Assembly (NCBI GenBank): GCA_947624155.1
Contig: CANQJB010000010.1
Span: forward strand, 1 to 38,118
From: an uncultured Clostridia bacterium
GTDB lineage: Bacteria; Bacillota; Clostridia; Oscillospirales; Ruminococcaceae
Direction of reading: 5' to 3'
Length of the DNA: 38,118 bases
Below are positions 6,267-26,013 of this stretch, piece after piece. Both the position numbers and the translations under genes were made by a program. A model generated the notes under the pieces. The model did not search any database. It saw only the letters and a program-made list of their open reading frames with translations, and was not told the origin of the DNA. Numbering within the stretch: the stretch's first letter is position 1; each line of letters begins with the position of its first letter.

Positions 6267-6395
6267 TAGCGCTTGCGAACTCTGTCCGGATGAGGCCGGC
6301 GCCGCGAAAGCGGCGTGCGAGGCGGGAGCCGAGTAGGCCGAGGCGAATGCGACCATAGCGAAAGTAATAGTTGTATCTATTTTTGAGGCCGCATT

Positions 6396-9212
6396 TTAAT
6401 CTTCACCGAGCTTCAGAGCCTTGTTGATATTGATCTGCTTGATAAGTCTCGCGATGACGAGGAAGCCGACCAGAAGCATTACCGCGACGATTGCATAGAG
6501 CTTGTAGTAGTCGCTGCGCTGGGAGACGACCTTGAACGGCGGCACCTGATCGGTGACATTGTAGAGCACCTGGAAGAGCGGGACAAAGATGTCGGAGGCA
6601 ATTCCGCCGATAATTATCGAGAGGAAGATTGAAACGCCGGAGACGAGAATCTGCTCATAAATTATCATCGAGATTATCTCTCTGAAGGACATACCCATTG
6701 CGCGGAGGATACCGAACTGGAGAGTTCTGCCCTTGATCGAGAGGATCCAGTAGATCAGGAAGCCGATGAAGCACATCGCCATGATCGTGATGAAGCCGAG
6801 AGTCAGAGCGCCGTTGACGCCCTGGAGGACTGCGTCGGTCTTTGAGGAGACGATTAGCTGAGTTGCAACGTCGAGGCGGGTCGCGGTGATGTCGTTGGCG
6901 ACGATTCCGTCATAGAACGCGGCGATGTCGGCGTCGTCAGTCATATCGAGCCAGACTTCATAGGGCTCGGTGATCGTCATTATGCTGACATAGTCATAGT
7001 TCATGATGACAAAGTCTCGGTATTCGCCGGAGGAGTTCTTTTCATAGGGGTTGACGCTCGGCCAGAAGTCGACTATCGCGACGACGGTTGCTTCAAACCA
7101 GTCGTTTCTCGCCCATTTGACCTCGATCACGTCGCCGAGCTTTATTCCCTTCTTGTCAGCATAGGACTGGGAGATAATCACGCCGTCCTGACACTCGCTG
7201 AGGGCGTTGATGTAGTAGTTGATATGAACCGGCAGGAGGTCGGAGCGGAACCAGGCGACCTGGGCGAACTGATCCGGAATGATCGCGGTCAGGTGGCAGT
7301 CGGGCTGGGTCGAGCCCTCATAGCGGAGCTGGACGCTGTCTCTCTGGAAGACAGGCGTTGCGAGCTCGACGCCGGGGAGGGTCGAATAGCGCTCAAACTC
7401 AGGCTCGGTATATTGGGTGGTTGAGCTTTCCTCGCCGGTCTCGGGGTCGATCACCTTGACGCGGCTGGTCTTCCACGCTTCGGTAATTACCGCGTCGGCG
7501 CCGAGGTTATAGCGAATGCGCTCTTCTGTGTTGCGGTTTATCGCTCGGGCGGTGTTGGCCGAGAATATTCCGAGCGCAACGGTCAGGATCAGGAAGATCA
7601 TTATGAACTTTTCACGCCCGGTCGAGGAGCGGCCGATGTTGTTGAGCGAGATATATGCCGCGGGGGACCAGTGCTTGCGGCCGATATTATAGACAAGCCT
7701 GATGAAATAGGGGTAAATTCTGACGCAAAGCAGACCCGCGCCGAGGATAAATACCGTCGACGCCGCAAACATCAGCGGGTTCATATTCGCCGAGGTATCG
7801 ACAATTCCCTGAGAGATCAGGTTTTCGTTGGTTCGGTTATACCACCAGAGCCAGACGACCGGCAGGACAACGCAGAAGATATCGAGGAAGGAGCGCTGCC
7901 AGAACGGCTTTTTCTGCTCGTGGGCCTTCGACTGCTTGTGGGCGACGATTGAAACTCTCGAAGCCGGAATTATCGGCAGGAGTGTGGTGACAAAGAAGAC
8001 GGCGACCGCGATCAGCGCATAGACAAACGGCGCTAAAGAAAGCTTTGCTTTGAGCGCAGGGCGGTTGACGAACTCCATAAAGCCGTTGGAAACGCCGAGG
8101 ATATTGCAGAGCCCGAGGCCGACAAACGGGCCGATCAGCGCGGAAACAGCGCCGAGGATCAGGGTTTCATAGGCGTAGATTCTGAGTATCTGCCAAGAGG
8201 AAGCGCCGCGCGATTTAAGCATCGCGATCTCGTTTCTCTCCGACTCGATATTGAGCTGGGAGACCATGAACAGATAGAAGACGAGCATCAGAACAACAGG
8301 AATGTCGAGCATCAGAAGGATATACCTGAGCGAAGCGGCTTTACCCGCATATTCTTCGAGAACTTCCTTCGCGGGGACCTCAAAGGTGCAGTTTTCCTCT
8401 TTATACTGCTCCTCCTGAGTGGCGAAGCTGTTGCGAACGTGCTCGATCACGTTCATGTCGATATTCTGGTAGTCGATGATGATTCGGCAGTCGACATTGT
8501 TGAGGTTGACGACGCCGGTAAAGATCATATCCTCGGTCAGGGTGGTGAAGTCGGCGAAGAAGGTGTTGTCATATTCCGACAGACCCTCTGACCAATATGT
8601 ATCGGTTGGGCTGACGAGGTCGAAGGTGCCGACGATCTTGATCTTGACCGTTTCGCCGGGGGTGATGATGTTCGTGACCTCATAGACCTCGTCCATCATT
8701 ACCTGAGAGACCTGGAGAGCGCGCTCGGTGCATATTACTTCATAAGCGCCGTCCTCGTCCTTGCCGGGATTATACATTCGGCCGTTGGTGATCTGGATAT
8801 GGCCGTCCATCTCGGTCATTGAACCGAGCTTTAACATCGAGGGCTCGCCCGACTCCGTCTCGATATTCGTTACATAAAGATAGGAGTCACAGGTGAACGC
8901 CTTGTAGTTTTCGTAGGGAACAAGAAGGTTGTTGAAGCGGTCTACCGCGCGCGCATAGACGTTCAGAACATTTGCGCGCTGGTTAGCGGCGTTGGTGCCG
9001 CTGACGATAGTCTTTGACACGGCATATACGCCGGGATATTGCCCCTCTTCCTCCTGATATGCCTGCATATCCTTTATCAGCATACGCTGAAGAGAAGCGT
9101 GCATATATATCGGAATGGTACTTGTCATCGCGGTGGCCATTACAAAGCCGATCAAAAGACATATTACCATCCACTTTGTATTGCGCATCTTGCGCAGCAA
9201 TAATGTCAGCAT
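6396..9212 (-). CDS. ABC transporter permease with two FtsX domains (MacB/LolE-like)
   Basis: A 938-residue membrane protein with an N-terminal membrane anchor (about 15-37), a large extracytoplasmic domain, a first FtsX block with membrane segments near 300, 350 and 400, further middle segments (about 445-565), a second extracytoplasmic domain (about 570-810), and a C-terminal FtsX block with three segments. The cytoplasmic motif IKGRTLQFGILRAMGMSF in the last block is the characteristic FtsX loop (ilRamG). Such permeases do not form a substrate channel in the membrane but pass mechanical force from a LolD/MacB-type ATPase to substrates or hydrolases outside. No ATPase domain is present in this protein; the partners are probably the two ATPases at the far end of the cluster (24134-25769). 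It follows the fusion-protein gene by 42 nt and is the last gene of the transcription unit. Confidence 0.9.
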   Translation of the reverse strand: MLTLLLRKMRNTKWMVICLLIGFVMATAMTSTIPIYMHASLQRMLIKDMQAYQEEEGQYPGVYAVSKTIVSGTNAANQRANVLNVYARAVDRFNNLLVPYENYKAFTCDSYLYVTNIETESGEPSMLKLGSMTEMDGHIQITNGRMYNPGKDEDGAYEVICTERALQVSQVMMDEVYEVTNIITPGETVKIKIVGTFDLVSPTDTYWSEGLSEYDNTFFADFTTLTEDMIFTGVVNLNNVDCRIIIDYQNIDMNVIEHVRNSFATQEEQYKEENCTFEVPAKEVLEEYAGKAASLRYILLMLDIPVVLMLVFYLFMVSQLNIESERNEIAMLKSRGASSWQILRIYAYETLILGAVSALIGPFVGLGLCNILGVSNGFMEFVNRPALKAKLSLAPFVYALIAVAVFFVTTLLPIIPASRVSIVAHKQSKAHEQKKPFWQRSFLDIFCVVLPVVWLWWYNRTNENLISQGIVDTSANMNPLMFAASTVFILGAGLLCVRIYPYFIRLVYNIGRKHWSPAAYISLNNIGRSSTGREKFIMIFLILTVALGIFSANTARAINRNTEERIRYNLGADAVITEAWKTSRVKVIDPETGEESSTTQYTEPEFERYSTLPGVELATPVFQRDSVQLRYEGSTQPDCHLTAIIPDQFAQVAWFRSDLLPVHINYYINALSECQDGVIISQSYADKKGIKLGDVIEVKWARNDWFEATVVAIVDFWPSVNPYEKNSSGEYRDFVIMNYDYVSIMTITEPYEVWLDMTDDADIAAFYDGIVANDITATRLDVATQLIVSSKTDAVLQGVNGALTLGFITIMAMCFIGFLIYWILSIKGRTLQFGILRAMGMSFREIISMIIYEQILVSGVSIFLSIIIGGIASDIFVPLFQVLYNVTDQVPPFKVVSQRSDYYKLYAIVAVMLLVGFLVIARLIKQININKALKLGED

Positions 9213-9254
9213 TTGGGTCCTCCTTAATCAGACTGGCGAAAAGTTGAAGCTTAA

Positions 9255-10304
9255 TTACCGGATAATTACTTCATCGCCGGGTTCGAGACCGGAGGTGATT
9301 TCAACGAGCGAACCGCTCTGGAGACCCTTTGTGACTGTTACCTGAACTCTTTCGTTGTCCTTAAATACATAGACTACATCGACTCCGTTGACCTTTTTAA
9401 CGAGGTTGGCGGAGATTACGATCACGTTCTCGCGCTTGTCGAGAATCAGAAGCGTATCGGCGATGTTGCCGACGGCGGAGGACTCGGGAATGATGTCGTT
9501 GAACTTTACGATGATGTCCTCAGACTGCTCGCCGAGAACATCTTCGCCGGCGGAGTCGACCTTTGCGCTCTCGGTCGTCTCGTCCCACTGGCGGCCGGAC
9601 TTGTTGCGGACAATCGTTCCGTCGAAGTATTCGCCGTTGTAGCGAATGGTGATCGGGCGGCCGATCAGAAATTCGCCGACGTCGTTATTCGGGTCGATTT
9701 TTATGTAGAGGTCGGTGATGTCGATAACCGTCGCGACGGTCTCGCCGGGGTTGACCCAGTCGCCGGGGGAGCAGGTCTTGACATAGGAAACGGTTCCGCC
9801 GACGTCGGTATAGAGCTTTGCGCCCTCCTTTTCGGCATAGAGCTTATCGAGGTCGAGCTGCATCAGGTCGATGTCGAGCTGCTCCTTGGCCTTGACGTTT
9901 TCGGACTCGTGCTTTTCAATCGCGATCTCAAGCTCGAGCTTTTCGCGCTCCATTTCCATTTCCTTGATCGCAATCTCCTGATCGAGCTCATAGGTGTCGA
10001 ACTCGGCGATCAAATCGCCTACCTCGACCATCTGACCGGCAGTCACATAAACGGCCTTGATGTTGCCGCCGCGCTCGGTGAACCGCGCGTTGTATTCGGT
10101 GCCGGAAGCGATGGTTCCGGGAGTAAGGACCTGGCGGGTGATGTCTTTAAGAGTCGCGGTCGTGGTGGTGTATGAGACTTCGCTGGCCTTAACGACCGGC
10201 GCCTCTAAAAGCTCCTCTTCCTCCGGCAGAAAGTAGCAGCCGCTCAGAGAGGTCAGCGCCAAAAGCAGCGCAAGCGAAAGCGAAATGATCCTTGATATTT
10301 TCAT
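9255..10304 (-). CDS. HlyD/MacA-like periplasmic-adaptor lipoprotein
   Basis: A 349-residue membrane fusion protein. The signal peptide ends in SLSGC, giving a lipid-modified C23. A biotinyl-lipoyl-like half motif lies at about 65-110 (TPGTIASGTEYNA, VYVTAGQMVEVGDLIAEFD). A short charged alpha-helical hairpin (about 110-160) and the second lipoyl half (DVGGTVSYVKTCSPGDWVNPGE) follow, then a beta-barrel domain and a C-terminal membrane-proximal domain (TVTKGLQSGSLVEITSGLEPGDEVII). In Firmicutes such proteins pair with MacB-like FtsX permeases, here the next gene. An excellent AGGAGG site and a separate promoter (10365-10393) allow expression apart from the rest of the cluster. Confidence 0.9.
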   Translation of the reverse strand: MKISRIISLSLALLLALTSLSGCYFLPEEEELLEAPVVKASEVSYTTTTATLKDITRQVLTPGTIASGTEYNARFTERGGNIKAVYVTAGQMVEVGDLIAEFDTYELDQEIAIKEMEMEREKLELEIAIEKHESENVKAKEQLDIDLMQLDLDKLYAEKEGAKLYTDVGGTVSYVKTCSPGDWVNPGETVATVIDITDLYIKIDPNNDVGEFLIGRPITIRYNGEYFDGTIVRNKSGRQWDETTESAKVDSAGEDVLGEQSEDIIVKFNDIIPESSAVGNIADTLLILDKRENVIVISANLVKKVNGVDVVYVFKDNERVQVTVTKGLQSGSLVEITSGLEPGDEVIIR

Positions 10305-10364
10305 GTTGTTCCTCCTATGGTAAATATCAAAAAATTGAGTCCGAAGTATTTCCGAATTACTTCT

Positions 10365-10393
10365 ATTTTATCAGAAATTGCGGAATAAATCAA
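10365..10393 (-). promoter_or_regulatory. Internal promoter for the MacA-like/FtsX pair
   Basis: On the minus strand, TTGATT (10393-10388), a 17-bp spacer and TAAAAT (10370-10365), 60 nt upstream of the lipoprotein start. Between it and the GH26 stop lies a GGCG-AAAA-CGCC hairpin without a good T-run, so read-through from the long operon is also possible. Confidence 0.7.
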
Positions 10394-10464
10394 TAGCTGT
10401 GAAAGATTTTTTGGCGTTTTCGCCGAAAATATATTTTAACAGTATGTAATAATCAAATCACATA

Positions 10465-12045
10465 TTACTGGTTGTTGTCAATTTCATCGAGAGTCAGCAC
10501 AAGGCTGCTGTTATAGAACCGAATCCATGCCGCGTCGGGCATATATTCGCCGCCGGGAGAGTAGTCGCCGGTCCAGGCGGAGGCGAAGGACCAGAAGGCT
10601 CTGTCCATCGCGGAATAGTCGGGAATCGGGAAATTCGAGCACTCGCTCAGCGCGACCGGCTTTTCGGCTGAGACGCCGCGCGCGGAGAGAAAGAAGTTTA
10701 TTCCGCTCCTGCCCGCGGCGGGACTGCCGGAGGGGTAATAGACGTCGAGCGAAATAATGTCGCAGTATTCGTCGCCGGGGTACCACTCGGCGTCCTGACC
10801 GTTCCAGACCCAGATCAGGTTGGTCAGGCTGTGATACTCGGTAAACCTCTCGTAGATCAGCTTATAGAGCCAGAGATAGCTGTCCTTGTCGCGCGACCAC
10901 CAGAAAATCCCGCTGCTTGCCTCGGGAAGAGGGCGGAAAATCACCGGCACTCCTGCGTCGCAGAGCCTTTTAAGCTGAGCTGCAGCGAGGTCGATTCCGT
11001 CGATGATCGCGAGCGTTTCGGCGCTGACCTCCTCGGCGTCATATTTTTCGACCAGTTCCGCAGGCTCGACCGTCGCGAGGTCGAGGTCGGAGACAGCCTT
11101 TTGGAGGTCGAAGCCGGTGCGGCTTTGATATACCGAACCGCTCATCGGCCAATTCCAGACATAGCCGACGATTCCTCCGCCGCTCGCCCATTCGAGCGCA
11201 AGCTCGATGTCGCCGGTGTCGGACCCGGCGGAATAGTCCATCAGCTCGCCGAAGCGTATCGCCGGGTATCTGCCGGTTGTCTCGTAGACCAGCTCTAACT
11301 CGGCGTTTGTCCCCTGAGAGACCTGCTGGCCGCTCAGGATTTTTTCGCCGTAGTTGGCGAGAATATAGGAATAGAGCCGAGATGAGTTTTCGTCAGAAGA
11401 TGGGTTAGAGAGCGCGGCGGAGTCAAGATCGTAGGAAAGATCAATAATATCTGAGGAGTTCGAGATCATTATGCAATCGAGATCGACGTTTCCGCTCAGC
11501 CCGGCGACGCTCAGAGTTATCTCCGAGGCCGAAAGATAGATGTTGTCGAATCTCAGCGCCTCGAACTCACCGCTGCCCGAGAGGGTGAATTCCGCAACAG
11601 GCGAACCGTTTATCGTCAGGCTGCCGGATTGCTCGGAATCGGACGCGGCGCGAAGAGTAAGGTTATAGTGCTGCGGCGAGGGTATCTCTGCCGAGACCGA
11701 GACGCTTCCGTCGGGGTAAAGGCCGGTGACGCAGCCGCCGCCCGACCAGCCCTCGCGCACGTCGCTGATCTCGGCGCTCCCCGAAAGGACTCCGCTTTCA
11801 AATTCGACGAGCTGTTCAAATTCCGACGGTTCGATCGGGTAGACCCCCGGGTCGGTGTCGCTGAGGTGAGGTATCTCGGGCTCGGTGACGGCCGGAAGAG
11901 TCTCAAGAGGAGCGGTTTCGGGCGTAGGTTCGGTTTCGGTCGTGTTGCCGGTCATTATCGAGATACCGGCGGTTTCGGCAGGCTGCTGCTGAACAGGATC
12001 GGACCCGGAGGCACAGCCGCAGAAAATCAGCCCGCAGAGGAGCAT
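10465..12045 (-). CDS. GH26-family glycoside hydrolase lipoprotein (beta-mannanase-like) with CBM35-like domain
   Basis: A 526-residue secreted lipoprotein predicted to cleave beta-mannan or a related beta-glycan at the cell surface. The N-terminus is a hydrophobic signal ending FCGC (C11), followed by a Thr/Pro/Glu linker. Residues about 75-197 form a beta-sandwich like CBM35 sugar-binding modules. The GH26 barrel (about 220-515) has the acid/base E375 in RPLPEASSGIFWWS and the nucleophile E468 in VALSECSNFP, plus LIWVWN. GH26 enzymes usually have His directly before the acid/base Glu; here it is Pro. The ATG at 12045 lacks a ribosome site and the signal then lacks its basic residues. An in-frame ATT at 12069, 9 nt after GGGAG, would add ILPKRLLI and restore them, so the true start may be non-AUG. 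It follows the second permease pair. Confidence 0.85.
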   Translation of the reverse strand: MLLCGLIFCGCASGSDPVQQQPAETAGISIMTGNTTETEPTPETAPLETLPAVTEPEIPHLSDTDPGVYPIEPSEFEQLVEFESGVLSGSAEISDVREGWSGGGCVTGLYPDGSVSVSAEIPSPQHYNLTLRAASDSEQSGSLTINGSPVAEFTLSGSGEFEALRFDNIYLSASEITLSVAGLSGNVDLDCIMISNSSDIIDLSYDLDSAALSNPSSDENSSRLYSYILANYGEKILSGQQVSQGTNAELELVYETTGRYPAIRFGELMDYSAGSDTGDIELALEWASGGGIVGYVWNWPMSGSVYQSRTGFDLQKAVSDLDLATVEPAELVEKYDAEEVSAETLAIIDGIDLAAAQLKRLCDAGVPVIFRPLPEASSGIFWWSRDKDSYLWLYKLIYERFTEYHSLTNLIWVWNGQDAEWYPGDEYCDIISLDVYYPSGSPAAGRSGINFFLSARGVSAEKPVALSECSNFPIPDYSAMDRAFWSFASAWTGDYSPGGEYMPDAAWIRFYNSSLVLTLDEIDNNQ

Positions 12046-12086
12046 TATCAGAAGTCTTTTCGGTAAAATATCACAACACTCCCAAA

Positions 12087-12140
12087 CAGGCTTAATAGCA
12101 GGTTTTAAGCCTGCCGCCTCGTTGAAAGGGACGGCAGGCT
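12087..12140. terminator. Two mutually exclusive hairpins before the GH26 gene
   Basis: AGCCTGCCG/CGGCAGGCT (12108-12116 with 12132-12140) and CAGGCTTAA/TTAAGCCTG (12087-12095 with 12105-12113) are each exact 9-bp stems and share the bases 12108-12113. Only one can form at a time. On the minus strand no strong T-run follows, so attenuation, processing or mRNA stability are all possible roles. In the plus direction the first stem is followed by GTCAAAGTTTTTT. Confidence 0.55.
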
Positions 12141-12186
12141 GTCAAAGTTTTTTGCGTTATACTGCGGGTTTACGCAGTTCCGGCAA

Positions 12187-13308
12187 TTACATACCGGTCA
12201 GACCGGATCTCGCGAGACCCTCGGTGAAGTATTTCTGTAAGAATACATACATAACGAGGATCGGCGCGATCGAGAGCAGGCACCCTGCCTCAAGCCAGAC
12301 TATCTTCTTTCTGGTGCCGACCTGAGCGCCGTTAAACAGCTGCTGGTCGAGGGTCGTCGACAGCTTTTGGAGCTGGAGCGCGACGGTGTGGTTGTTTGTG
12401 AAGAAGGTCGAGCTTACATAGAAGTCGTTCCAATACCAGACGATTGCGAAGAGGAAGACGGTCAGGAAGGAAGACGAGGCGTTAGGAACCATAATGCGGA
12501 TAAAGGTCTTGAAGGGGCCGCAGCCGTCGAGATAGGCGGCGTCTTCGAGCTCGATCGGCAGTCCGCGGAAGAACTGACGGAAGATGAAGATAAACAGACC
12601 AGATTTAATACCGTTTGCAAAGATCGCAGGAGCGTACATAACTATGTCGACGTTGATAAGCGAGACATACCATGAGCCGCCGCCCTCGGTCTGCATTATG
12701 GTTTTGCCGAAGATCTCGGTGACGCCCAGATTATGGAGCAGGCTGACAAGGCCGAAGCCCTTGAAGAATGCCCACTGGAGATAGAGCGGGATAACGGTGA
12801 TCTGCGGAGGAACGATGATCTGCATAATGACTATTGCGAAGCAGATGCCCTTGCCCTTGAAGTTAAATCTCGCGAGGCCGTAGCCGGTCAGCGCACAGAC
12901 GACAACCGAAAGCAGCGAGCAGACGATGTTGAGCTTCAGGGTGTTCCAAAGGGTCGCGCCGAAGTCCATTGTTTCCCAGACGTCGATCATGTTGCTGAGG
13001 GTCAGAGACTTCGGGAGCCAGATTACTGACGGGTCGGTCATCTGAACGTTGGGCCTGAACGCAGTCGAGAACATATAGATCAGCGGATAGAGGATTACGA
13101 AGCAGAGGCCGAAGAGAATCATGAAGCGGAAGATCGGCCATACCTTCGAGAGGATCGCCTTGCGGCGAAGATAAGCGGTATGCTCAGGAGAGATTACGCG
13201 CTCATCGAGGGTTCCTGCTTTTTTAGCGGCTTTATAAGCCTTTGCACGCTCTTTTAGAGCCTTTGCGCGTTCTTTTTCAAATTGTTTTTCTTCTTTTGCA
13301 GTTGCCAT
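12187..13308 (-). CDS. Carbohydrate ABC transporter permease, MalG type (pair 2)
   Basis: A 373-residue inner-membrane permease with six predicted membrane helices. The cytoplasmic EAA loop reads EDAAYLDGCGPFKTFIRIMVP (split here at DGCG), the docking site for a MalK/MsmX-type ATPase. The N-terminus carries about 60 extra highly charged residues (many Lys/Glu/Ala) before the first helix, longer than usual MalG proteins. There is also an insertion of about 20 residues near 185-210 (a QTEGGGSW segment) between helices. It starts 14 nt after its MalF-type partner stops, so the two are translated together. Substrate is unknown; the downstream GH26 suggests mannan-type oligosaccharides. Confidence 0.9.
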   Translation of the reverse strand: MATAKEEKQFEKERAKALKERAKAYKAAKKAGTLDERVISPEHTAYLRRKAILSKVWPIFRFMILFGLCFVILYPLIYMFSTAFRPNVQMTDPSVIWLPKSLTLSNMIDVWETMDFGATLWNTLKLNIVCSLLSVVVCALTGYGLARFNFKGKGICFAIVIMQIIVPPQITVIPLYLQWAFFKGFGLVSLLHNLGVTEIFGKTIMQTEGGGSWYVSLINVDIVMYAPAIFANGIKSGLFIFIFRQFFRGLPIELEDAAYLDGCGPFKTFIRIMVPNASSSFLTVFLFAIVWYWNDFYVSSTFFTNNHTVALQLQKLSTTLDQQLFNGAQVGTRKKIVWLEAGCLLSIAPILVMYVFLQKYFTEGLARSGLTGM

Positions 13309-13322
13309 TCAGTATCCCTCCC

Positions 13323-16810: not shown

Positions 16811-16821
16811 TTTCTGCTTTG

Positions 16822-17457: not shown

Positions 17458-19142
17458 TTACCCTTGCCCCCTTTCTTTTGCTTTGCGTCGGCGACCGCCT
17501 TGACTACGGCGTCCCTGCCCTTGTTATAGACATATCCGACGCCGGTGGCGATAAGCTTCTGCGGGATCTTTCCCTTCTTCTTGAGGTGCTTGATTACGAA
17601 CCACACGATTACAAGGAGAATTATGATTATGACATAGAGGGTGAAGTTATCTCTGAGGCCCTCCTGGCGGTTTGCCTCGAAAGCGCGGTCATAGTCGGTA
17701 TCGGTGAAGGCGAGCTTCGCATATTTCATCGCGCCCTCGTAGTCCTCCTGATTGTAGAGGGCCTTCGCGGTTCCGACGAGAGCCATATAGAAGCCGCCGT
17801 CGCGCTTTAAGACCTCCTGCCAGACATCGTAGGCTTCTTCATAGAAACCGGCGTTGTGCAGAGCGATCGCCTGGTGGACATAGGAGCCGAACTCGGTCAG
17901 ACCGAAGACGGTGATGTCGTTGTTGCGGCCGTCGAGGATATAGATGTTGTCGCCGTAGGTTTCGATCGCGTTCGGGTTGTTAAATCCGCCGCGCTGCTCC
18001 TCCTGGTCGAAGCCGAAGATAAGAAGCTGGTTGCAGCGCTCATCATACTGGAAGATTCGGCCGGAGGTATAGTCGAGAATGTTGACGAACTTGTCGTCAG
18101 AGATCGCGATGTCGGTAAGACGTGTAGCATAGGTGGTGCCGTTGTAGGTTACCGAGACCTGGTCGCCGAACTGGTTGTTGTCGGCGGTGAGCTCCAAAAT
18201 GTTGTAGCCCGCGGGGTTCATCTTCTTGACCGCGTCGGTGGTGGTGTTCGCGACCTCGGTAACCGTCCAGATAAAGCCCTCGTCGTCGATATCGAAGTTG
18301 GCGTATTCGACAGGTGTGGACTTTGTCAGCGAAGCGAGCTGCTCTTCGGAAGCGATCTTTCTCCAGATCCTGTTTCTGATAACCTCGGCGGTTACCTCAA
18401 CTCTGTTCTGACCGTAGAACCCGATAAAGGTTCCGGAGTCGGAGAACATTATCGCGCCCTTGTTGACTGCCGGGCAGATGACGTAAACGTTGCCGGCGGC
18501 GTCGACACAGACCTTGGTGCAGTAGAAGGATACGGAGTCATAAAGCTCGGTTTCGGGCTTGTAATACTCGTTGAGGATCTTGGCGGTAGTCTTTGTCGAC
18601 TCAACGCACTTGACGATTCTCTGGTGGTCTCTGTCGGCGATATACATGACGTCGTCCTTGTCGACAAAGATTCCGTAAGGGCTCTTAAGAGTCTTGAGGT
18701 CGTCCTCGTCGAGCTCGATCACGTTGCCTTCCTCGTCGACGACCGTGTGTTCCTCGTCGTCGTCAAGACCGCTGAATGTCTTGTAGCAGGCGAGAAGGTT
18801 GAAGTTGATATCGGTTCTGATTATTCTGTTGTTGCCGGTATCGGCGATGAAGAACTCGTCATTAGGAGACAGATAGAAGTCCTTCGCATCGCCGAGGGTT
18901 ATCGGCTCTTTTTCGCCGATGAAGAATTCGCTGGTCGGATCTCTGAGCTGTTTGAGCTGATCCTGGAGGTCGACGGTATTGATGACCTCATAGCCGGCCT
19001 GAGAGGGAACTGCATTCCACCAGGCGTCATAGTTGTATGTAGTGTAGGGATCGACCGCGCTGACGACCGAGGTCATCAGCATTACTGCCGCAAGCGCCGC
19101 GATCAGTACACTCGAGAGTTTTTTAAATTTCATACTCGTCAC
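17454..19142 (-). CDS. Membrane-anchored NHL-repeat beta-propeller with TPR segment
   Basis: A 562-residue exported protein. A signal peptide (about 1-30) precedes an NHL-type propeller (about 75-420) with repeats such as FYLSPNDEFFIADTGNNRII, GIFVDKDDVMYIADRDHQRI and IETYGDNIYILDGRNNDITV. Two TPR-like helical pairs follow (about 428-495: AIALHNAGFYEEAYDVWQEV, ALYNQEDYEGAMKYAKLAF), then one membrane helix (about 512-531) and a Lys-rich cytoplasmic tail. The propeller and TPR therefore face outward. NHL propellers bind proteins, glycans or RNA; here a docking or scaffold role for the secreted partners is likely but inferred. The start is a GTG 7 nt after AAGGTG; ATG at codon 4 is an alternative. 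It is coupled to Yip1 by an ATGA overlap. Confidence 0.85.
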   Translation of the reverse strand: MTSMKFKKLSSVLIAALAAVMLMTSVVSAVDPYTTYNYDAWWNAVPSQAGYEVINTVDLQDQLKQLRDPTSEFFIGEKEPITLGDAKDFYLSPNDEFFIADTGNNRIIRTDINFNLLACYKTFSGLDDDEEHTVVDEEGNVIELDEDDLKTLKSPYGIFVDKDDVMYIADRDHQRIVKCVESTKTTAKILNEYYKPETELYDSVSFYCTKVCVDAAGNVYVICPAVNKGAIMFSDSGTFIGFYGQNRVEVTAEVIRNRIWRKIASEEQLASLTKSTPVEYANFDIDDEGFIWTVTEVANTTTDAVKKMNPAGYNILELTADNNQFGDQVSVTYNGTTYATRLTDIAISDDKFVNILDYTSGRIFQYDERCNQLLIFGFDQEEQRGGFNNPNAIETYGDNIYILDGRNNDITVFGLTEFGSYVHQAIALHNAGFYEEAYDVWQEVLKRDGGFYMALVGTAKALYNQEDYEGAMKYAKLAFTDTDYDRAFEANRQEGLRDNFTLYVIIIILLVIVWFVIKHLKKKGKIPQKLIATGVGYVYNKGRDAVVKAVADAKQKKGGKGK

Positions 19143-19191
19143 CGCTTTTCACCTTTCATTATTATAGTATAGCAATATGTCGGAGATGGTC

Positions 19192-20169
19192 TTAGTCCTT
19201 CATACCGGAGTTTGCCATTGTTTCCATAACATTACTCTGGGCAATCAGGAATATGACAAGCGGAGGGATCATAAGTACGACAGCCGAGGCGTAGATGATA
19301 CCCTGACGGGCGATACCTGCGGCGGCGATCTGGCTCATGATGGTCGGCAGAGTCTTGAGGTCTTCCTTATAGACGAGCGCGCCGCCCTGAACGTTCCAGG
19401 CGCCCTGGAACACGAAGATAATCAGGGTTGCAATCGCAGGCTTCTGGTTAGGAATGACGACCTGCCAGCAGGTGCGGAATGCGCCCGCGCCGTCGACCTT
19501 TGCCGCGTCGATGATCGCGTCGTTGATGGTCGACATATTCTGTCTCATCAGATACAGACCCATCGAGGTTGCGACGTTAGGCAGGATCAGCGCCCAATAG
19601 GTATTGATCATACCCATTTTCGCCATAACGACGAACTGCATGATCCATGTCGCGGTCGAGGTGAACAGCATCGAAGTGACGATGATTTGGTTTGCGAATT
19701 TATAGCCGGGAATATTCGGGCATTTCGAGAGGACGTATGCACAGCAGCAGACCACGAAAACGTGCATCAGGGTGATGACGATTGTGATGAATACCGAGTT
19801 GAAAACGTATCTCGAGAAGGGAACCCAGAGGTTTCCTGCGACCTTGAACAGATTCGAGAAGTTCTCGCCTGTCGGTGATACGACATAGAGCTTAGGCGGG
19901 AATACGAAGAGTTCGCTTATCGGCTTGAAGGATTGGATAATCGAATAGTAGAGCGGGAAGATCATAAAGATTCCCAACAGAGCGAGAAGAATGAATATCG
20001 CGATATCTCCGCCGAGGGAGCCGTTAATGTGCTTGCCCTTCGACTTCTTGACTCTTGCCTTTTCGATGTCGCCTCTTCTCTTCTGGCGCTTTCTGAGCCT
20101 TTTTAACGCTCTCGCGTTTTGAGCTTCAACTGAATCCATTACGGGATTCTTGACAGCGGTTTCAGCCAT
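19192..20169 (-). CDS. Carbohydrate ABC transporter permease, MalG type (pair 1)
   Basis: A 325-residue permease with a basic N-terminal tail (about 1-48), six membrane helices and the EAA loop DAAKVDGAGAFRTCWQVVIP. It begins 19 nt after the MalF-type partner and pairs with it. The adjacent solute-binding protein (21155-24067) is the obvious delivery protein. It needs a MalK/MsmX-type ATPase, and none is encoded in the window. Confidence 0.93.
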   Translation of the reverse strand: MAETAVKNPVMDSVEAQNARALKRLRKRQKRRGDIEKARVKKSKGKHINGSLGGDIAIFILLALLGIFMIFPLYYSIIQSFKPISELFVFPPKLYVVSPTGENFSNLFKVAGNLWVPFSRYVFNSVFITIVITLMHVFVVCCCAYVLSKCPNIPGYKFANQIIVTSMLFTSTATWIMQFVVMAKMGMINTYWALILPNVATSMGLYLMRQNMSTINDAIIDAAKVDGAGAFRTCWQVVIPNQKPAIATLIIFVFQGAWNVQGGALVYKEDLKTLPTIMSQIAAAGIARQGIIYASAVVLMIPPLVIFLIAQSNVMETMANSGMKD

Positions 20170-20188
20170 TTATGTTCCCCTCCTTTTG

Positions 20189-21136
20189 TTAATCGGTGTA
20201 TTTGCTCAGCACGTTTCTGATGACTTGGTTACAAATCAGCATAACCGCGAACAGAACGAAGCATATTGCCGAGGCGTAGCCCATTTCGTAACGGATGGAG
20301 CCGTAGTCCTGAGCGTGGTTCATAACGGTATGAACCGCGTAAGCAGTTGACGGCATTCCGCAGAGGGCCGCGCCGACCGAGCCGACGGTGAACGCGCCGG
20401 AGATCGCGAGAACGGCTGCGAAGAGGAGCGACGGACCCATCGCCGGAATGGTGATGGTGAAGAGCTCCTGGAAGCGGTTCTGGATTCCTTCAATAGCGCC
20501 CGCTTCATAAAGCGAGGTATCGATTCCCTGGAAGCCCGCGCGAAGAGCGAGGAAGCCGGCGCCCATCGACATCCAGAGCTGAACGATGATGACGACGGTC
20601 ATCATATAGGTTACGTCGGTCAGCCACTGTTTCGCGGTGTTGATGATTCCCCAGTCGAGAAGAACCGAGTTGAGGTAGCCGTAGGAGTCGCCGGAGAAGA
20701 CGAGCTGCCAGATAACGAAGGCGGAGGGGGTCATCGAGGGAGCGTAGAACACGAAGGTGAAGAATACCTTCAGGAAGGGGTTCATCTCATTTATCAGCCA
20801 TGCGAGAATGAAACTGAGAACATAAGAGAACGGGCCGGTGAATATCGCGAAGATAAGGGTGTTGCGGACTGCGGTCAGAAATACGTCGTCGTTTACGAAC
20901 AGGGAATAGAAGTTCTGGAGGCCGACGTAATGCGGGAACTGAACGAGGTTGAAGCTCGTGAGACCCAGAGGCAGCGACATCAGAACCGGAACCGCAGTAA
21001 AGAGAATGAACAGAGCGAAGAACGGGGCCATCATCCAGTAGCAGGCCTGGTTCATTTTCATAAGGTGAAGCGTGTAATGCCACTTGCTGTCGGTATTAAG
21101 GGGCTTTACAGCCTTTTGTTCTTTAACCTTTGCCAT
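20189..21136 (-). CDS. Carbohydrate ABC transporter permease, MalF type (pair 1)
   Basis: A 315-residue permease with six membrane helices and the EAA loop YEAGAIEGIQNRFQELFTIT. The family signature in the last cytoplasmic loop is intact. It follows the solute-binding protein gene by 18 nt and precedes its MalG partner by 19 nt, the standard order for a sugar importer. Substrate is not evident. Confidence 0.93.
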   Translation of the reverse strand: MAKVKEQKAVKPLNTDSKWHYTLHLMKMNQACYWMMAPFFALFILFTAVPVLMSLPLGLTSFNLVQFPHYVGLQNFYSLFVNDDVFLTAVRNTLIFAIFTGPFSYVLSFILAWLINEMNPFLKVFFTFVFYAPSMTPSAFVIWQLVFSGDSYGYLNSVLLDWGIINTAKQWLTDVTYMMTVVIIVQLWMSMGAGFLALRAGFQGIDTSLYEAGAIEGIQNRFQELFTITIPAMGPSLLFAAVLAISGAFTVGSVGAALCGMPSTAYAVHTVMNHAQDYGSIRYEMGYASAICFVLFAVMLICNQVIRNVLSKYTD

Positions 21137-21154
21137 TATTTATTCCTCCCTCCT

Positions 21155-24067
21155 TTAGTCTTTTAAGAGATCCTCGATATCTATACCGAGTTCCTCGTAT
21201 TTTCTGATGATCTCATCGTTTGTATCCTTATTGTACCAGATCAGAGTGTCGCGCGGGTTAGAGGAGAGGTTGACGGTTTCTCTGAAGGCGTTGGTGATGT
21301 TACGGGTAACGATGTAGGTCGCGGGAATGATGTCGATATCGACGGTGTACATCATCTGCTCACGGATCAGATCGAGTTCTTGCTGGTTCCAGGCGAGCTT
21401 TCCGAGCGCTTCGTAGTTAGCGGTGTCGAAACGTCCGAGAGGGCCTAAGAGTGCTTCGATCGAGCGACCGTATTCAGACTGAGTCTCGGCGGAGGTGAAC
21501 CACTTGATCAGCTCCCAGGCGTCCTTTCTCTGCTCTTCGTTGAGCTTGGAGAAGATGATTCCGCCGGAGGAGGAAGAGGTTGTCGAGCGGTTGATGTTGC
21601 CGTTCTCGTCCTCGGTGCCGGGAATGAGGTTCAGAGACCATGTTCCGCGGATTTCCGGAGCAGCCATGTAGAGCTGGTTATAGAAAGTATAACCGGTAAC
21701 GATGATCGGGTATTCGCCGGAACGGAAACGTGTGAACTGGTCAAACGATTGCTGGAAGCTGTAAGTGTTGTAGAACTTGGTCCACATCTCGAACGCCTCA
21801 ACAGCGGGCTGAGTGTCGAAGATTGTTGCGGTCTTGGACTCGTTGTAGTAGCCGAGGCCGCGCTGGACCATAAAGGTTCCGAAGACGTCGAAGTTGAAGC
21901 CGACGCCCATATAGCTTCTCTGAAGAGTCGGGAGCATATCAATCAGCTCGACCCAGGTATCGGGTCCCTTTTCGAAGCCGAAGGAATTGAGAACGTCGTC
22001 GCGGGTGAACATCATCGAGAAGCTCTGGGAGATCGGCAGTCCGTAGACGCCGCCCTGATATGTATAGAGCGTCATAACGTTCGGCGCGAAGCGCTTAATT
22101 ACATCCTGATAGTCGTCGAACTGAGAGATGTCGACGAGGGTGTCACGGGCGGCCAACTGGATCGGGAGGTCGCCGCCGACGAAGAGAACGACGTCAGGTC
22201 CCTTGCCCGCGAGGGTGGATTCGAGGATACCGCCCTGAACGAGGTTGATGCTGATTGCGATTCCGGTGTCTTCAACGAAGTAGGAATCAACGAGCTCCTT
22301 AACGACCTGAGCCTGGTCACGTCCGAGGGAGACCCAGACGTTGAGCGCGGACTTGTTGTCCTCCGAGAGAATGTTATAGTCGGCGAAGAAGGAGCCGATG
22401 AAGGACTGGAAGCTGAAGCCGAGCTGCTTGATAAAGCTTTCCTTGACGGAGCTTGCAGCCTCGTCGGCGGAAATCAGCTCGATCATGTCGACTTCGAGAT
22501 ACTGGCTGCGGTAGTCGGTCATCCACTGGGACAGCGAGGAGACGTTGTCCTTGATCTGGCCGAGGCAGCCCGGAATATCGTCGGGGCGCTTGACAAGTCT
22601 GTCGAGCAGCTTAGCCATCGTGTCGAGCGAGACGGCCTCGGTGCCGGCGGTTCCCGCGAGAACTTCGATGTCGGCCTTAAGGGCGCGGAGCTGTTCGGCA
22701 TAGCTGGCGAAGTCTTCGAGAATGCCGTGGATCTGCTTGTGAATTTCGTAGTTGTTGTATTCGTCGGGAGAAGGAGAGGTGATCTGAAGGATCTGGCGGT
22801 AGTAGCTGTTGAGATAGTAGACAAGGTCGTCGAGCTGACGCATAATGTCGCCGATCTCACCGGGGATCGCATCGAGAGTCAGAGTGTGCTCGCCGGCTTC
22901 GAGATAGAAGTAAAGGTCGTTGCCGTCGGCGTCGGTCGGAGAGACAACCTGCCACTCGGTCGAGTAGTAGAACTTGATCTGGTCAGCCTCTGCGCAGGGG
23001 ACGACTCCGTCGATATAAAGTCTTCTGTTGGAATAGAGGCCGCGCATCTGGTCCTGTCTTGCGCGGATAGCGACCTTGACCCAGCCGGCTTTGTCCATGT
23101 TAAAGGTCCATGTGACATTCTGTCCGGCGTCCTTCCAGTTCTCCTTGCCGATGGTGTTGTAGATCATCTTGACGGGATCGTGGGGGGATGTCAGATATGT
23201 AGAGCGGTCATAGGTGGGGTAAAGAGTGATGTCGGACGCGCTTGAAGGAGCCTCGCCCTCGAGAGTGAGGTGAATGCCGGCTGAGGAACCGGCCTTCGAG
23301 GCATCGGTGGTGACATTGTCGCACTGAGCTGCGGGCTTGGGAGATTCGGGGTTGTTGAAGGTGATCTTTTCGATCGCGAATTTCGCCTTGACCGAGGTCA
23401 GGGTAATGGTGTGAGTGCCGGCGGTGATATAGAATCCGAGCGGATCGTTAAAGAGTCCGTCGATATCCTTCAGATAGTCCGACATCCACGCGGGTTCTTC
23501 CTCAAGAGTAGGTCTGATCTGGTTTCCGTGAACGTCGGTGCGGAAGGAACGGGTTCCGTCCTCATTGACTTCATAGGATTTTGAGGCAGCGACCCACTTT
23601 TTGGCGAGCGCGACGCGCTCAGCGGTGCTGAAAGCATATTCGCCGTCGATCATCAGGCCGAATTCGATGTTGTTCGCCGCGCCCTCGAGGGCGTAATAAT
23701 CGAACTTGATCGAATACATACCGGTAGTCGGAATGTCGACGGTAAATTCGACCGTTCCGCTTGCCTCCGGCCAGACCAGGGCCTCTCTGCCTTCAAAGGT
23801 TCCGGCATAAGCACCGGAGTCCTCGGAAGCCGAGACGTAATCCTTTCCCCAGATGACCGCTTCGGCGTCAGGTCTGGGGTCGCCTATGTGCTTATCATAG
23901 TAGGTGCTGTAAGTGCGGGCTCTGTTTTCGTCGTCAAGCGACTGGGCAGAAGTCTCTCTGACCTCTTCGGTCTCGGAGGAATCCGCCCAAACAGCTCCGG
24001 CTGTCGGCACTATCATCACTAACGCTATGACCAGCGATATCAGGCGCCTGAACATTTTGTCTTTCAC
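21155..24067 (-). CDS. Giant extracellular solute-binding protein with CBM-like N-terminal domains
   Basis: A 970-residue exported protein; ordinary family-1 sugar-binding proteins have about 420-450. A signal peptide (about 1-28, AVWA cleavage) has no lipobox cysteine. Two beta-sandwich regions resembling carbohydrate-binding modules follow (about 70-240 with VEFTVDIPTTGMYSIKFDY, and about 260-440 with FYLEAGEHTLTLDAIPG). A helical segment (about 445-560) leads to a standard solute-binding fold (about 580-970: GPDVVLFVGGDLPIQLA, VYGLPISQSFSMMFTRDDVL, ELIKWFTSAETQSEYGRSI). It probably captures a polysaccharide or large glycan and hands it to permease pair 1. The GTG start has AAGGTGG 7 nt upstream. 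With no lipid anchor it must be held by partners, and the NHL protein is a candidate (inference). Confidence 0.88.
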   Translation of the reverse strand: MKDKMFRRLISLVIALVMIVPTAGAVWADSSETEEVRETSAQSLDDENRARTYSTYYDKHIGDPRPDAEAVIWGKDYVSASEDSGAYAGTFEGREALVWPEASGTVEFTVDIPTTGMYSIKFDYYALEGAANNIEFGLMIDGEYAFSTAERVALAKKWVAASKSYEVNEDGTRSFRTDVHGNQIRPTLEEEPAWMSDYLKDIDGLFNDPLGFYITAGTHTITLTSVKAKFAIEKITFNNPESPKPAAQCDNVTTDASKAGSSAGIHLTLEGEAPSSASDITLYPTYDRSTYLTSPHDPVKMIYNTIGKENWKDAGQNVTWTFNMDKAGWVKVAIRARQDQMRGLYSNRRLYIDGVVPCAEADQIKFYYSTEWQVVSPTDADGNDLYFYLEAGEHTLTLDAIPGEIGDIMRQLDDLVYYLNSYYRQILQITSPSPDEYNNYEIHKQIHGILEDFASYAEQLRALKADIEVLAGTAGTEAVSLDTMAKLLDRLVKRPDDIPGCLGQIKDNVSSLSQWMTDYRSQYLEVDMIELISADEAASSVKESFIKQLGFSFQSFIGSFFADYNILSEDNKSALNVWVSLGRDQAQVVKELVDSYFVEDTGIAISINLVQGGILESTLAGKGPDVVLFVGGDLPIQLAARDTLVDISQFDDYQDVIKRFAPNVMTLYTYQGGVYGLPISQSFSMMFTRDDVLNSFGFEKGPDTWVELIDMLPTLQRSYMGVGFNFDVFGTFMVQRGLGYYNESKTATIFDTQPAVEAFEMWTKFYNTYSFQQSFDQFTRFRSGEYPIIVTGYTFYNQLYMAAPEIRGTWSLNLIPGTEDENGNINRSTTSSSSGGIIFSKLNEEQRKDAWELIKWFTSAETQSEYGRSIEALLGPLGRFDTANYEALGKLAWNQQELDLIREQMMYTVDIDIIPATYIVTRNITNAFRETVNLSSNPRDTLIWYNKDTNDEIIRKYEELGIDIEDLLKD

Positions 24068-24133
24068 TGTGAATCCACCTTTCCGTTGAATTTGGATTGC
24101 GATATATTTTCTCCGTTTAGGGTATAAAGGATT

Positions 24134-25108
24134 TTATTGAGCCTTGTGGATATAAATCCGCTGCTGCTCAAGATCGAGGTCGGCTTTGACCTTGGAGCCG
24201 CCCTTTATTTCAAGGGCCTCGAGGTAGTCCTTCGGAATCTGGAGTCTGCCGGTGCGGTCAAGAACCACCAGCTCCTCCGAAACCTCGACGGGCTCCGCTC
24301 CTTCTTCTTCGGCGCCGTTGTCCCAACCCTTCGACTCCTGCATTATCTCGGCGTGAGTTTTTCTGATAATCTCACTCGAGGTGCGGCCGTCGCGGATCGA
24401 AACAACGCGGTTTACCTGCTTCGCAAGCCTGAGATCGTGGGTGACGATAACGACAGTCACTCCGCGCTTTTCGTTTATATCCTTGAAAACCTGCAAAAGC
24501 TGGTCTGAAGTCTTGGTATCGACAGAGCCGGTCGGCTCGTCGGCGAGAAGTATCACCGGGTCGTTCGCAAGAGAGATCGCGATCGCGACTCTTTGCTGTT
24601 CACCGCCCGACATCTGGTCGAGCCTGGAATTGATTCTGTGCGACAGCCCGACGACGTCTAAAAGCTCGAGAGCCTTTTCGCGCCGCTGCTTCTGGCCCTG
24701 AAGGAGCATCGGAAGCTCGACATTCTGGACCGCCGTCAGATAAGGAACGAGGTTTCGCGCGTTGTTCTGCCAGACGAATCCGACGGTGTTGCGCTTATAT
24801 ATCATGTAATCCTCTTCGGTGAATTTCAGAAGATTGCGCCCGTTGACGGTCAGCGCTCCCGCGGAGGGCTTGTCGAGTCCGCCGAGCATATTCAGTAGTG
24901 TCGACTTGCCGGAGCCGGAGGTTCCGACGATCGCGACAAGCTCGCCCCGCTTGATCTGAAGGTCAAGACCCTGGAGCGCGACGACCTCGATCTGGTCGGT
25001 TTTATAGATCTTAACGAGGTTCTCGCATTCTATCGCGTACTCCGACTCGGCCATCAGCTCCTGCTCGTGCTCGAGTTTTGCTTTCTTTCTCTTAGTCAAT
25101 GATCTCAC
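24134..25108 (-). CDS. LolD/MacB-type ABC ATPase with C-terminal AbrB-like domain
   Basis: A 324-residue ATPase. It has Walker A GTSGSGKST (about 62-70), signature MSGGEQQRVAIA, Walker B VILLADEPTGSVD and switch VTHD, with the spacing of the LolD/MacB/FtsE class that powers FtsX permeases. After an acidic linker (about 255-277), residues about 279-323 align by eye to the AbrB/SpoVT swapped-hairpin fold (VVLDRTGRLQIPKDYLEALEIK, shown in two halves: VVLDRTGR and IPKDYLEALEIKGG). That fold usually binds DNA. ABC ATPases of this class normally end before it. The GTG start at 25108 overlaps the previous gene by 17 nt; a TTG at 25099 or the ATG of codon 19 are alternatives. Confidence 0.88.
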   Translation of the reverse strand: MRSLTKRKKAKLEHEQELMAESEYAIECENLVKIYKTDQIEVVALQGLDLQIKRGELVAIVGTSGSGKSTLLNMLGGLDKPSAGALTVNGRNLLKFTEEDYMIYKRNTVGFVWQNNARNLVPYLTAVQNVELPMLLQGQKQRREKALELLDVVGLSHRINSRLDQMSGGEQQRVAIAISLANDPVILLADEPTGSVDTKTSDQLLQVFKDINEKRGVTVVIVTHDLRLAKQVNRVVSIRDGRTSSEIIRKTHAEIMQESKGWDNGAEEEGAEPVEVSEELVVLDRTGRLQIPKDYLEALEIKGGSKVKADLDLEQQRIYIHKAQ

Positions 25109-25769
25109 CGTCCTCTAGCGTGTAAACCCTGTCGGCGATTTCAAGAAGGCTGACGTCGTGGGTGGTCATGACTATCGTCATGTGCTCGTCAAGAACAAGG
25201 GTCTTGAACAGCTCGACGATATGGTGGCTGGTGCCGGAATCGAGCTCGGCGGTCGGCTCGTCGGCGAAGATTATCTTTGGCTCGTGGGCGAGCGCTCTCG
25301 CGATCGCGACTCTTTGCTGTTCGCCGCCCGAAAGCTCGCCGGGGCGGTGGTGCATTCTCTTTGCGAGGCCGACCTCTTCGAGGCACTTTGTTACCCTTTC
25401 CTGGCGCTTATCTAGCGGGAAGCCCGCCAGCCGAAGCCCGAAGTCGACGTTTTCATAAGCGGTCATCGAGCTCATCAGCGCGACCGACTGGAAAACAAAG
25501 GCCATCTGATAGCGGCGGATCTCGTCGCGCTTCGCGTCGGAAAGCTTTGTGATGTCCTGGCCGTCGAAAATAACCTCGCCGGAGGTCGGGCGGTCAAGGG
25601 CGCCGAGCATATTTATCAAGGTGGTCTTGCCCGAGCCGGAACGGCCCTTCAATATCGTCAGCTTGCCCTCGGCGACGTTCATATTGATGTCTTTAAGAGC
25701 GTGGATCACGCTCCCGTCGCCGATCACAAAGTCGCGGCAGACGTTTTGTGCTGTAAGTAATTCTGACAT
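25092..25769 (-). CDS. LolD/MacB-type ABC ATPase
   Basis: A 225-residue stand-alone ATPase with Walker A GRSGSGKTT, signature LSGGEQQRVAIARAL, Walker B IIFADEPTAELD and switch TTHD. It belongs to the class that drives FtsX-type permeases, not to the MalK class, since it lacks the C-terminal regulatory domain. The ATG at 25769 (MSELLTAQ) is chosen because GGAGGG lies 11 nt upstream; the open frame extends further but would include a Cys-rich stretch unlike the family. It is the first gene of the long minus-strand cluster, with about 170 nt of structured leader in front. With the next ATPase it may form a heterodimer that energises the FtsX protein at the cluster end. Confidence 0.92.
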   Translation of the reverse strand: MSELLTAQNVCRDFVIGDGSVIHALKDINMNVAEGKLTILKGRSGSGKTTLINMLGALDRPTSGEVIFDGQDITKLSDAKRDEIRRYQMAFVFQSVALMSSMTAYENVDFGLRLAGFPLDKRQERVTKCLEEVGLAKRMHHRPGELSGGEQQRVAIARALAHEPKIIFADEPTAELDSGTSHHIVELFKTLVLDEHMTIVMTTHDVSLLEIADRVYTLEDGEIID

Positions 25770-25945
25770 TCTGTCGTTCACCCTCCATAGGGACGTGATT
25801 GTGCAATCTGCACAAAAAACCGGTGCAAATCTCATAAACGACTTTAAGCAAATACTTTTTTCACATTACTCACAAAGGCGGTGAAAAAGGATATTTGCTC
25901 CAATTCGTCAATATTCAATTGAGACTCGAGTTACTTTGTGTGTAT
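25770..25945 (-). promoter_or_regulatory. Structured 5' leader of the 19.5-kb operon
   Basis: About 170 nt of noncoding mRNA. A long interrupted stem (25849-25898) pairs GCAAATA and TTTTTCAC with GTGAAAAA and TATTTGC around a 16-nt loop. A second hairpin, TTGTGCA-ATC-TGCACAA (25799-25815), competes with a GCAC/GTGC pairing further upstream. A small CCCT/AGGG hairpin covers the ribosome site. Known riboswitch motifs are not recognised. The stretch holds no supportable gene. Confidence 0.55.
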
Positions 25946-25974
25946 ATTATACCAAAGTGAAAGCCTTGTGTCAA
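25946..25974 (-). promoter_or_regulatory. Consensus sigma-A promoter of the long operon
   Basis: On the minus strand, TTGACA (25974-25969), a 17-bp spacer and TATAAT (25951-25946) match the consensus exactly, with AT-rich sequence upstream. Such a perfect promoter driving a 13-gene unit usually needs a repressor or leader control. Confidence 0.9.
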
Positions 25975-26013
25975 GCCCAAACACACGATTTTCACAAAAA
26001 AATTTCTGAAACC

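Follow-up and report, generated by a model that had tools for sequence, protein, structure and literature searches.

Why would one operon hold genes for sugar importers, a MacAB-like pump and several unfamiliar envelope proteins? The question is raised by a 38,118-nucleotide stretch of DNA from an uncultured Clostridia bacterium of the family Ruminococcaceae (GenBank assembly GCA_947624155.1, contig CANQJB010000010.1), which we call the window and always mean at its full length. Thirteen genes lie close together on its minus strand at 6396-25835. A first-pass annotation had taken them for one envelope machine, unlike any described system, that either captures, trims and imports a glycan or senses and remodels the cell wall. 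We find that the thirteen genes are two modules, an eight-gene importer and a four-gene MacAB-like pump, with a GH26 gene apart from both. On balance, the operon probably encodes an importer for hemicellulose-type oligosaccharides that is served by a MalK-type ATPase from elsewhere in the genome and is co-expressed with a complete gene set for a MacAB-like pump.

An eight-gene importer core with a near-fixed order

The core reads giant solute-binding protein (SBP), MalF2, MalG2, NHL, Yip1, DUF5696, MalF1, MalG1. Exactly this order was found in 101 of 159 loci, and 19 more keep it with the NHL and Yip1 genes fused; the remaining variants are mostly cut stretches, extra downstream permeases or an SBP block that lies downstream. 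Loci entered the counts if their DUF5696 score exceeded 250 bits, and they are called testable where enough flanking DNA was available (upstream, for NHL and Yip1). Removal of duplicates (L118/L158, L125/L211 and L032/L198) reduced the 159 to 156 distinct loci, all from Bacillota. All 145 distinct testable loci have NHL together with DUF5696, and the two lie within 1.5 kb of each other in 148/148 loci when duplicates are still included. Yip1 is a separate gene in 112 of the 145, is fused to NHL in 32 and went undetected in one; it is this fusion that points most strongly to NHL and Yip1 acting as a single part. MalF1 and MalG1 are both present in 146/148 distinct testable loci, and the giant SBP, MalF2 and MalG2 share a strand of the stretch as a block in 130/134. 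The weak DUF5696 matches L077-L083 have no core genes around them, except for a MalF/MalG-like pair in L081.

These loci come from three sources. DUF5696 matches occur in 46 of 119 genomes of the family and in 46 of 398 genomes of the phylum, 37 of them strong in each case. Family stretches were taken from all 37 genomes with a strong match, the other nine having weak or partial matches only. Phylum stretches were taken from 25 of 37; two of the remainder, G063 and the genome of the window, were covered by the family stretches. Among named genomes, a DUF5696 scan returned at least 582 relatives, the best 80 of which were used as named loci (61 are Paenibacillaceae by title). The ORFs (open reading frames) of the window were scanned with Pfam and NCBIfam models, profiles were built from the thirteen window-type proteins and run against every collected stretch, and flanking genes were clustered so that one representative per cluster could be scanned for domains.

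The gene-neighbourhood check proposed in the first-pass annotation came out positive for the eight-gene core. Among the 37 family genomes with a strong DUF5696 match, one besides the window's own was seen to hold the full thirteen, namely G044 (L061, L271), which belongs to the same genus; G065 (L060, L269) has twelve, with GH26 not in place. Eight Bacillota genomes (G158, G180, G200, G219, G253, G283, G453 and G459) have three near-full-length DUF5696 matches each, which suggests paralogous importers for different glycans.

Components of the importer

The giant SBP (21155-24067, minus strand, 970 aa; SBP_bac_8 4.2e-21, SBP_bac_1 2.4e-12) is built of a signal peptide, N-terminal stretches that resemble carbohydrate-binding modules (CBMs), a helical linker and a family 1 SBP. 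Sugar-binding proteins in the PDB match its profile from about position 530 onward. At E values up to 0.1, the front part matches Golvesin_C in 33 of 49 relatives and CBM_35 in 8 of 49, and weakly in the window. A lipobox pattern, which is crude and gives visible false positives, was found in 21 of 138 giant SBPs vs 76 of 114 ordinary ones. Ordinary SBP genes lie near the core in 6/47 family loci vs 72/80 named loci (the best 80 of 582).

Two permease pairs accompany this single binding protein, namely MalF2 (20189-21136; BPD_transp_1 3.7e-9) with MalG2 (19192-20169; UgpE model 3.3e-24, below cut-off) and MalF1 (13323-14342; UgpA model 3.6e-14, below cut-off) with MalG1 (12187-13308; BPD_transp_1 3.3e-11), all on the minus strand. 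BPD_transp_1 was found in all four, with MalF1 (24.3 bits) and MalG2 (19.0) under the Pfam cut-off of 26.4. The glycine of the EAA coupling loop is kept in 148/150 MalF1, 136/136 MalF2, 150/150 MalG1 and 140/140 MalG2 proteins. Since both pairs retain it, each probably works with a MalK-type ATPase. None is encoded in the operon; a candidate with OB/TOBE domains and no adjacent permease is encoded elsewhere in the window's genome.

Between the permease pairs lie the genes for a protein with an NHL propeller, TPR repeats and a C-terminal transmembrane anchor (17454-19142; NHL 9.7e-11, TPR weak), a Yip1-family membrane protein (16822-17457; Yip1 8e-15) and a secreted DUF5696 protein (14342-16810; DUF5696 6.7e-137), again on the minus strand. 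The operon shares with CUT1 importers (MalFGK2, UgpAE, MsmEFG) a family 1 binding protein, MalF/MalG proteins with EAA loops and, probably, the use of a common ATPase encoded elsewhere. It differs from them in having two permease pairs for one giant SBP and in the addition of NHL, Yip1 and DUF5696, which standard CUT1 systems are not known to have.

A two-ATPase pump that recurs with the importer

The pump comprises LolDa (25092-25835; ABC_tran 9.4e-36; TIGR02211 206.9 bits, below cut-off), LolDb (24134-25108; ABC_tran 5.3e-32), MFP, an adaptor lipoprotein of the MacA/HlyD type (9255-10304; RND_mfp 5.4e-15, below cut-off; HlyD_3 6.2e-6), and a double-FtsX permease of 938 aa (6396-9212; two FtsX stretches, 6.1e-21), all on the minus strand. 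Both ATPases are closest to LolD yet fall under the LolD equivalog cut-off of NCBIfam. By eye, the likelier start of LolDa is the ATG at 25769, which GGAGGG precedes, rather than 25835.

These four genes are a unit of their own. Six family genomes have a distant FtsX but no core. The order MFP-FtsX-LolDa-LolDb is kept in five of them, and in the other one (L248) the contig breaks off behind LolDa. Of ten pump loci from the phylum, seven read LolDa-MFP-FtsX-LolDb, one (L261) reads MFP-FtsX-LolDa-LolDb and two are cut. LolDb ends in an AbrB/MazE-like tail (24134-24346 in the window, minus strand; MazE_antitoxin E 0.0033, below cut-off), which recurs in pump loci of the gut family, of Paenibacillaceae and of others. 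A swapped-hairpin fold on an ABC ATPase might hold the two ATPases together or make contact with DNA.

An adaptor, a LolD/MacB-type ATPase and an FtsX permease are also what MacAB and YknWXYZ contain. Unlike these single-ATPase systems, the pump has two ATPase genes, one of them AbrB-tailed, at all 13 complete stand-alone loci, at L189 and in the window, and its permease is a double FtsX. In Bacillus, the Yip1-family protein YknW modulates assembly of the YknWXYZ pump (PMC4887032). No Yip1 dedicated to the pump came to light here: the stand-alone pump stretches of the family and the phylum gave no Yip1 profile match. The Yip1 of the window instead belongs to the importer core: it goes with NHL and DUF5696, mostly where no pump is nearby.

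Two side observations concern pump-type genes. In the window's genome, a second LolDb-like ATPase of 328 aa (L244, G000 contig 81, 180-4912, minus strand) is followed by a 789-aa ORF and by what appears, by eye, to be a 487-aa MacB-type permease. In L270 (G049 contig 127, 26-2916, minus strand) FtsX appears as two ORFs with overlapping ends, perhaps through a frameshift or an assembly error.

In the window's clade the pump is split, with the LolD pair at the head of the core operon. In nine of the 12 family genomes that have a LolD-headed core, MFP-FtsX lies elsewhere with no ATPase gene directly beside it (L240 is cut within MFP); in L243 an ATPase-like ORF lies about 1 kb away on the other strand. 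Among core genomes with readable upstream DNA, MFP-FtsX is present in 12/12 with the LolD pair vs 0/13 without it (Fisher p 1.9e-7, kinship ignored). G106, which was read and has no LolD, is included in this test, and G035, with FtsX, and G028 and G118, without it, were left out because their upstream DNA is cut. In the tree, LolD is found in a 24-locus clade (support 1.0), whereas an 11-locus branch and L065 lack it. None of these twelve genomes has FtsX, although G103, at 88% completeness, is weaker evidence of absence. G070 (78% complete) has a close FtsX match and no DUF5696. Losses of LolD are only slightly more parsimonious on this tree than several gains. Because of the co-occurrence and the tree pattern, the LolD ATPases and the distant FtsX permease most likely belong together.

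The pump and the core have also come to lie side by side more than once. In the window and its sister genome, MFP-FtsX comes next after the core, apart from an intervening GH26; it also does so in G065, on another branch, and in Thermobacillus (L189) all four pump genes follow the core. In G459 (L259) the start of a giant SBP gene lies some 4 kb past the pump, and, judged by eye, a LacI-like gene separates the two. An ordinary-size SBP-like gene follows the pump in L257 and L265, and only that of L265 reaches a weak profile match. Four of 15 off-core pump stretches in the family (L245, L249, L242 and L236) have GH29, GH2, GH26 or L-fucose isomerase genes nearby, as far as neighbours picked by eye can tell. 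Across the phylum, DUF5696 scores above the cut-off in 8/13 genomes with a strong FtsX match vs 31/385 others (two of the 31 weak), without correction for kinship. The pump is thus a second module, recurrently associated with the importer.

Neighbouring genes and a counterpart in a xylan locus

Genes flanking the 156 distinct loci encode ordinary SBPs (99 loci), LacI regulators (51), GH26 (35), AraC-type response regulators (25), GH2 beta-mannosidase-like enzymes (13), GDSL proteins (11), GH10, GH43 and GH113 (10 each) and GH5, GH9 and GH95 (8 each). In the 35 loci with GH26, that gene lies downstream of the core. The GH26 protein of the window (10465-12045, minus strand; GH26 2.1e-33) is a lipoprotein with a CBM35 (CBM_35 8.9e-7). 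A proline precedes its acid/base glutamate, as in L061, in place of the histidine that 43 of 45 collected GH26 proteins have at this position, so its activity or specificity may differ from the usual. A Gram-positive polysaccharide utilisation locus would combine an importer, a glycoside hydrolase and a regulator. The window has the importer and the GH26, and a two-component pair lies on the opposite strand (3085-5173); in relatives of the locus, LacI or AraC-type genes stand by the core.

The same genome encodes a second GH26 with the usual HE motif and no evident signal peptide (L146, G000 contig 29, 1945-2913, plus strand), which adjoins a sugar-type ABC ATPase and permease.

A counterpart of the core is found in the xylan degradation locus of Caldicellulosiruptor bescii (xloEFG-X-GH129-axoFGE-xynF..., Athe_0174-0185; Rodionov 2021, PMC8579813). 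The operon is induced on xylan and Avicel and is assigned to the XynR and AraR regulons. Its CUT1 systems have no ATPase of their own and are taken to share MsmK, the deletion of which reportedly impairs growth on oligo- and polysaccharides. The locus corresponds to the core in its succession of binding protein, two permeases, X, GH129-labelled protein, two permeases and binding protein, and in having no dedicated ATPase; it differs from the window in its xylan context, as opposed to GH26, and in its extra ordinary binding proteins. Behind the core, L134 has a pair of family 1 SBPs and then a GH43 enzyme, and L144 has a 650-aa ORF and a GH43-CBM-GH43-CBM6 enzyme; NHL and Yip1 are fused in both. 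These gene strings are consistent with the C. bescii order. No LolD or MFP-FtsX genes lie within the stretches read of L134 and L144.

The idea that the operon captures and imports a glycan is well supported for eight of the thirteen genes, by an order kept across the phylum, by hemicellulase neighbours and by the C. bescii order. The view that no such system had been described has to be qualified, as the core genes are listed in the C. bescii locus. They are treated there as two separate CUT1 transporters plus unassigned genes and are not recognised as a unit (PMC8579813). Among open-licence PMC papers, the eight-gene unit was not described in any title or abstract found, and the term "DUF5696" was not found.

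DUF5696 as a distant relative of GH129

Whether the operon also trims its glycan depends largely on DUF5696. A profile of 59 DUF5696 sequences matched two GH129 structures in the PDB, 5opq (E 2e-6) and 5wzn (E 7.8e-5), with alignments that cover an N-terminal strand as well as the beginning of the catalytic domain. These structures are of a 3,6-anhydro-D-galactosidase (5opq) and of the alpha-N-acetylgalactosaminidase NagBb (5wzn). The Pfam GH129 model had no match in 299 genomes, the window's own included, and 14 control genomes also gave none. A profile search of the PDB with the C-terminal part, where the GH129 catalytic pair was sought, gave no GH129 match.

DUF5696 could be an active GH129-like exo-glycosidase that trims side chains before import. 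This reading draws on the similarity to both enzymes, on the GH129-labelled gene at its place in the C. bescii operon and on Asp144 and Asp621 (window numbering), which are invariant in the 59-sequence alignment. The aspartate of an RDLG motif is likewise present in 79/80 named sequences (the best 80 of 582), but in only 16/32 phylum and 9/44 family sequences, and it is absent in the window. The NagBb motif LHLDGW aligns with YxGW in DUF5696, so that the aspartate before GW is not kept. None of the acidic columns is complete among 156 aligned proteins; Asp303 (148) and Asp621 (145) come closest. We consider an active enzyme somewhat unlikely. DUF5696 is a distant GH129 relative of doubtful catalytic competence, for which glycan binding is at least as likely as catalysis. 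With the proline of the window's GH26, this makes the trimming step of the first-pass annotation doubtful. GH129 proteins of Paenibacillus O199, which may or may not be DUF5696 proteins, were seen only during growth on crystalline cellulose (PMC4867992).

Weighing the explanations

Several points weigh against a glycan importer co-expressed with a pump. Most core loci have no pump nearby, and in 5/13 phylum genomes a strong FtsX match comes without the core; each module can thus do without the other. Most cores have no GH26 in their vicinity, and the substrate therefore appears to differ between lineages and is uncertain for the window. DUF5696 was the selection criterion for the loci, which also served to train the profiles and are clustered by lineage; the core counts are accordingly not independent and describe conservation rather than independent events. 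The C. bescii match is one of gene order and domains. The MalK assignment is by domain, the lipid-anchor test for the giant SBP is crude, and the operon was deduced from sequence.

The pump's occurrence as a stand-alone operon and the many cores with no pump nearby would suit two unrelated systems under one promoter, an ordinary CUT1 importer pair and a YknXYZ/MacAB-type efflux pump for stress or peptides, joined by rearrangement. Peptide-responsive pumps often follow response-regulator and sensor genes, and the pump of L259 does so, by eye. What chance joining leaves unexplained is that the LolD pair stands first in the core operon throughout a fully supported clade, that MFP-FtsX stands behind the core on two separate branches of that clade, that the whole pump follows the core in Thermobacillus, that four of 15 off-core pumps have eye-picked glycan genes beside them and that the phylum-wide co-occurrence is so uneven. 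We regard this explanation as a real possibility, though clearly the lesser one. The contrary extreme would make importer and pump one working envelope machine: the NHL-Yip1 platform would organise both, ATP-driven movement of the adaptor would deliver or free large glycans, or else the pump would export a surface component used in capturing them, and DUF5696, a former glycosidase turned glycan receptor, would serve the second MalFG pair in place of the ordinary SBP that is now mostly missing from the window's family. That full version is unlikely. The single machine of the first-pass annotation holds up for the importer; for the pump, a coupling is suggested by genome comparison only.

The LolD ATPases might instead power the MalFG channels as a hybrid importer, given that the operon has no MalK-type ATPase and that the LolD pair immediately precedes the gene for the binding protein. 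Most core loci lack the LolD pair, however, LolD tracks FtsX genome by genome and sits with it in core-less genomes too, and a separate MalK-type gene is available; we judged this candidate highly improbable. A machine that senses or remodels the cell's own wall is also very unlikely, if somewhat less so. FtsX-type permeases and propeller proteins do occur in wall-remodelling systems. One split MFP-FtsX pair (L241) lies near an NlpC/P60 gene, and beyond this neighbour no positive evidence for the proposal was found. The annotated recurrent neighbours are hydrolases of plant polysaccharides, together with binding proteins and regulators of the sugar type, and in C. bescii the counterpart responds to xylan by induction.

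Operon layout and boundaries

Pfam and NCBIfam bore out the thirteen close-packed minus-strand ORFs and the domains claimed for them. Coding sequence makes up 97.4% of 6396-25835, and in order from LolDa to FtsX the intergenic gaps are -17, 66, 18, 19, 49, -4, 11, -1, 14, 141, 160 and 42 nt. The perfect promoter also held: TTGACA-17-TATAAT at 25974-25946 on the minus strand, with TG before the second hexamer, is a 12/12 match to the sigma-70 type, and such a site arose by chance in 2 of 100 shuffles of the window. A terminator-like hairpin at 26116-26144 (minus strand; 11-pair stem and T run) closes the upstream unit, and no minus-strand terminator-like site was found in 6100-26000, where all 26 listed sites are on the plus strand. 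The thirteen genes are thus likely to form a single transcript, as one operon. The two largest gaps, 141 and 160 nt, flank the GH26 gene, and weak promoter-like sites (9/12 match) lie at 10456 and 10393; a second promoter before the adaptor is therefore possible, and the adaptor-permease pair may have its own transcription start besides that at 25974-25946.

A 721-aa ORF (26193-28358, minus strand) directly upstream of the promoter matched nothing in Pfam or NCBIfam at E values up to 0.01. Beyond the other end, the response regulator and histidine kinase genes of the two-component pair (plus strand) face the 3' end of the operon and could sense pump or glycan signals.

Proposed mechanism and significance

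We propose that ancestors of this bacterium placed pump genes under the importer's promoter. The giant SBP, mostly without a lipid-anchor motif among its relatives, would catch sugar chains, presumably hemicellulosic, with its CBM-like front and its SBP tail. The NHL-TPR protein, anchored beside Yip1 and sometimes fused to it, would form a membrane platform through contacts that dock the giant SBP and the DUF5696 glycan-binding protein. GH26 would act at the surface, and the two MalFG channels would carry the chains inward, driven by the MalK-type ATPase encoded elsewhere. LolDa and LolDb would power the MFP-FtsX pump, whatever its cargo, and not the importer.

We read the two modules as variants of familiar systems, a CUT1-type importer set apart by its surface parts and a MacAB-like pump with two ATPases. 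The repeated union of the two asks what role such a pump has in carbohydrate uptake by Gram-positive bacteria. The core offers a setting in which roles for DUF5696 and bacterial Yip1 proteins can be tested, and the eight-gene unit, its order kept from Paenibacillus to Clostridia, probably represents a large, overlooked class of glycan importer.

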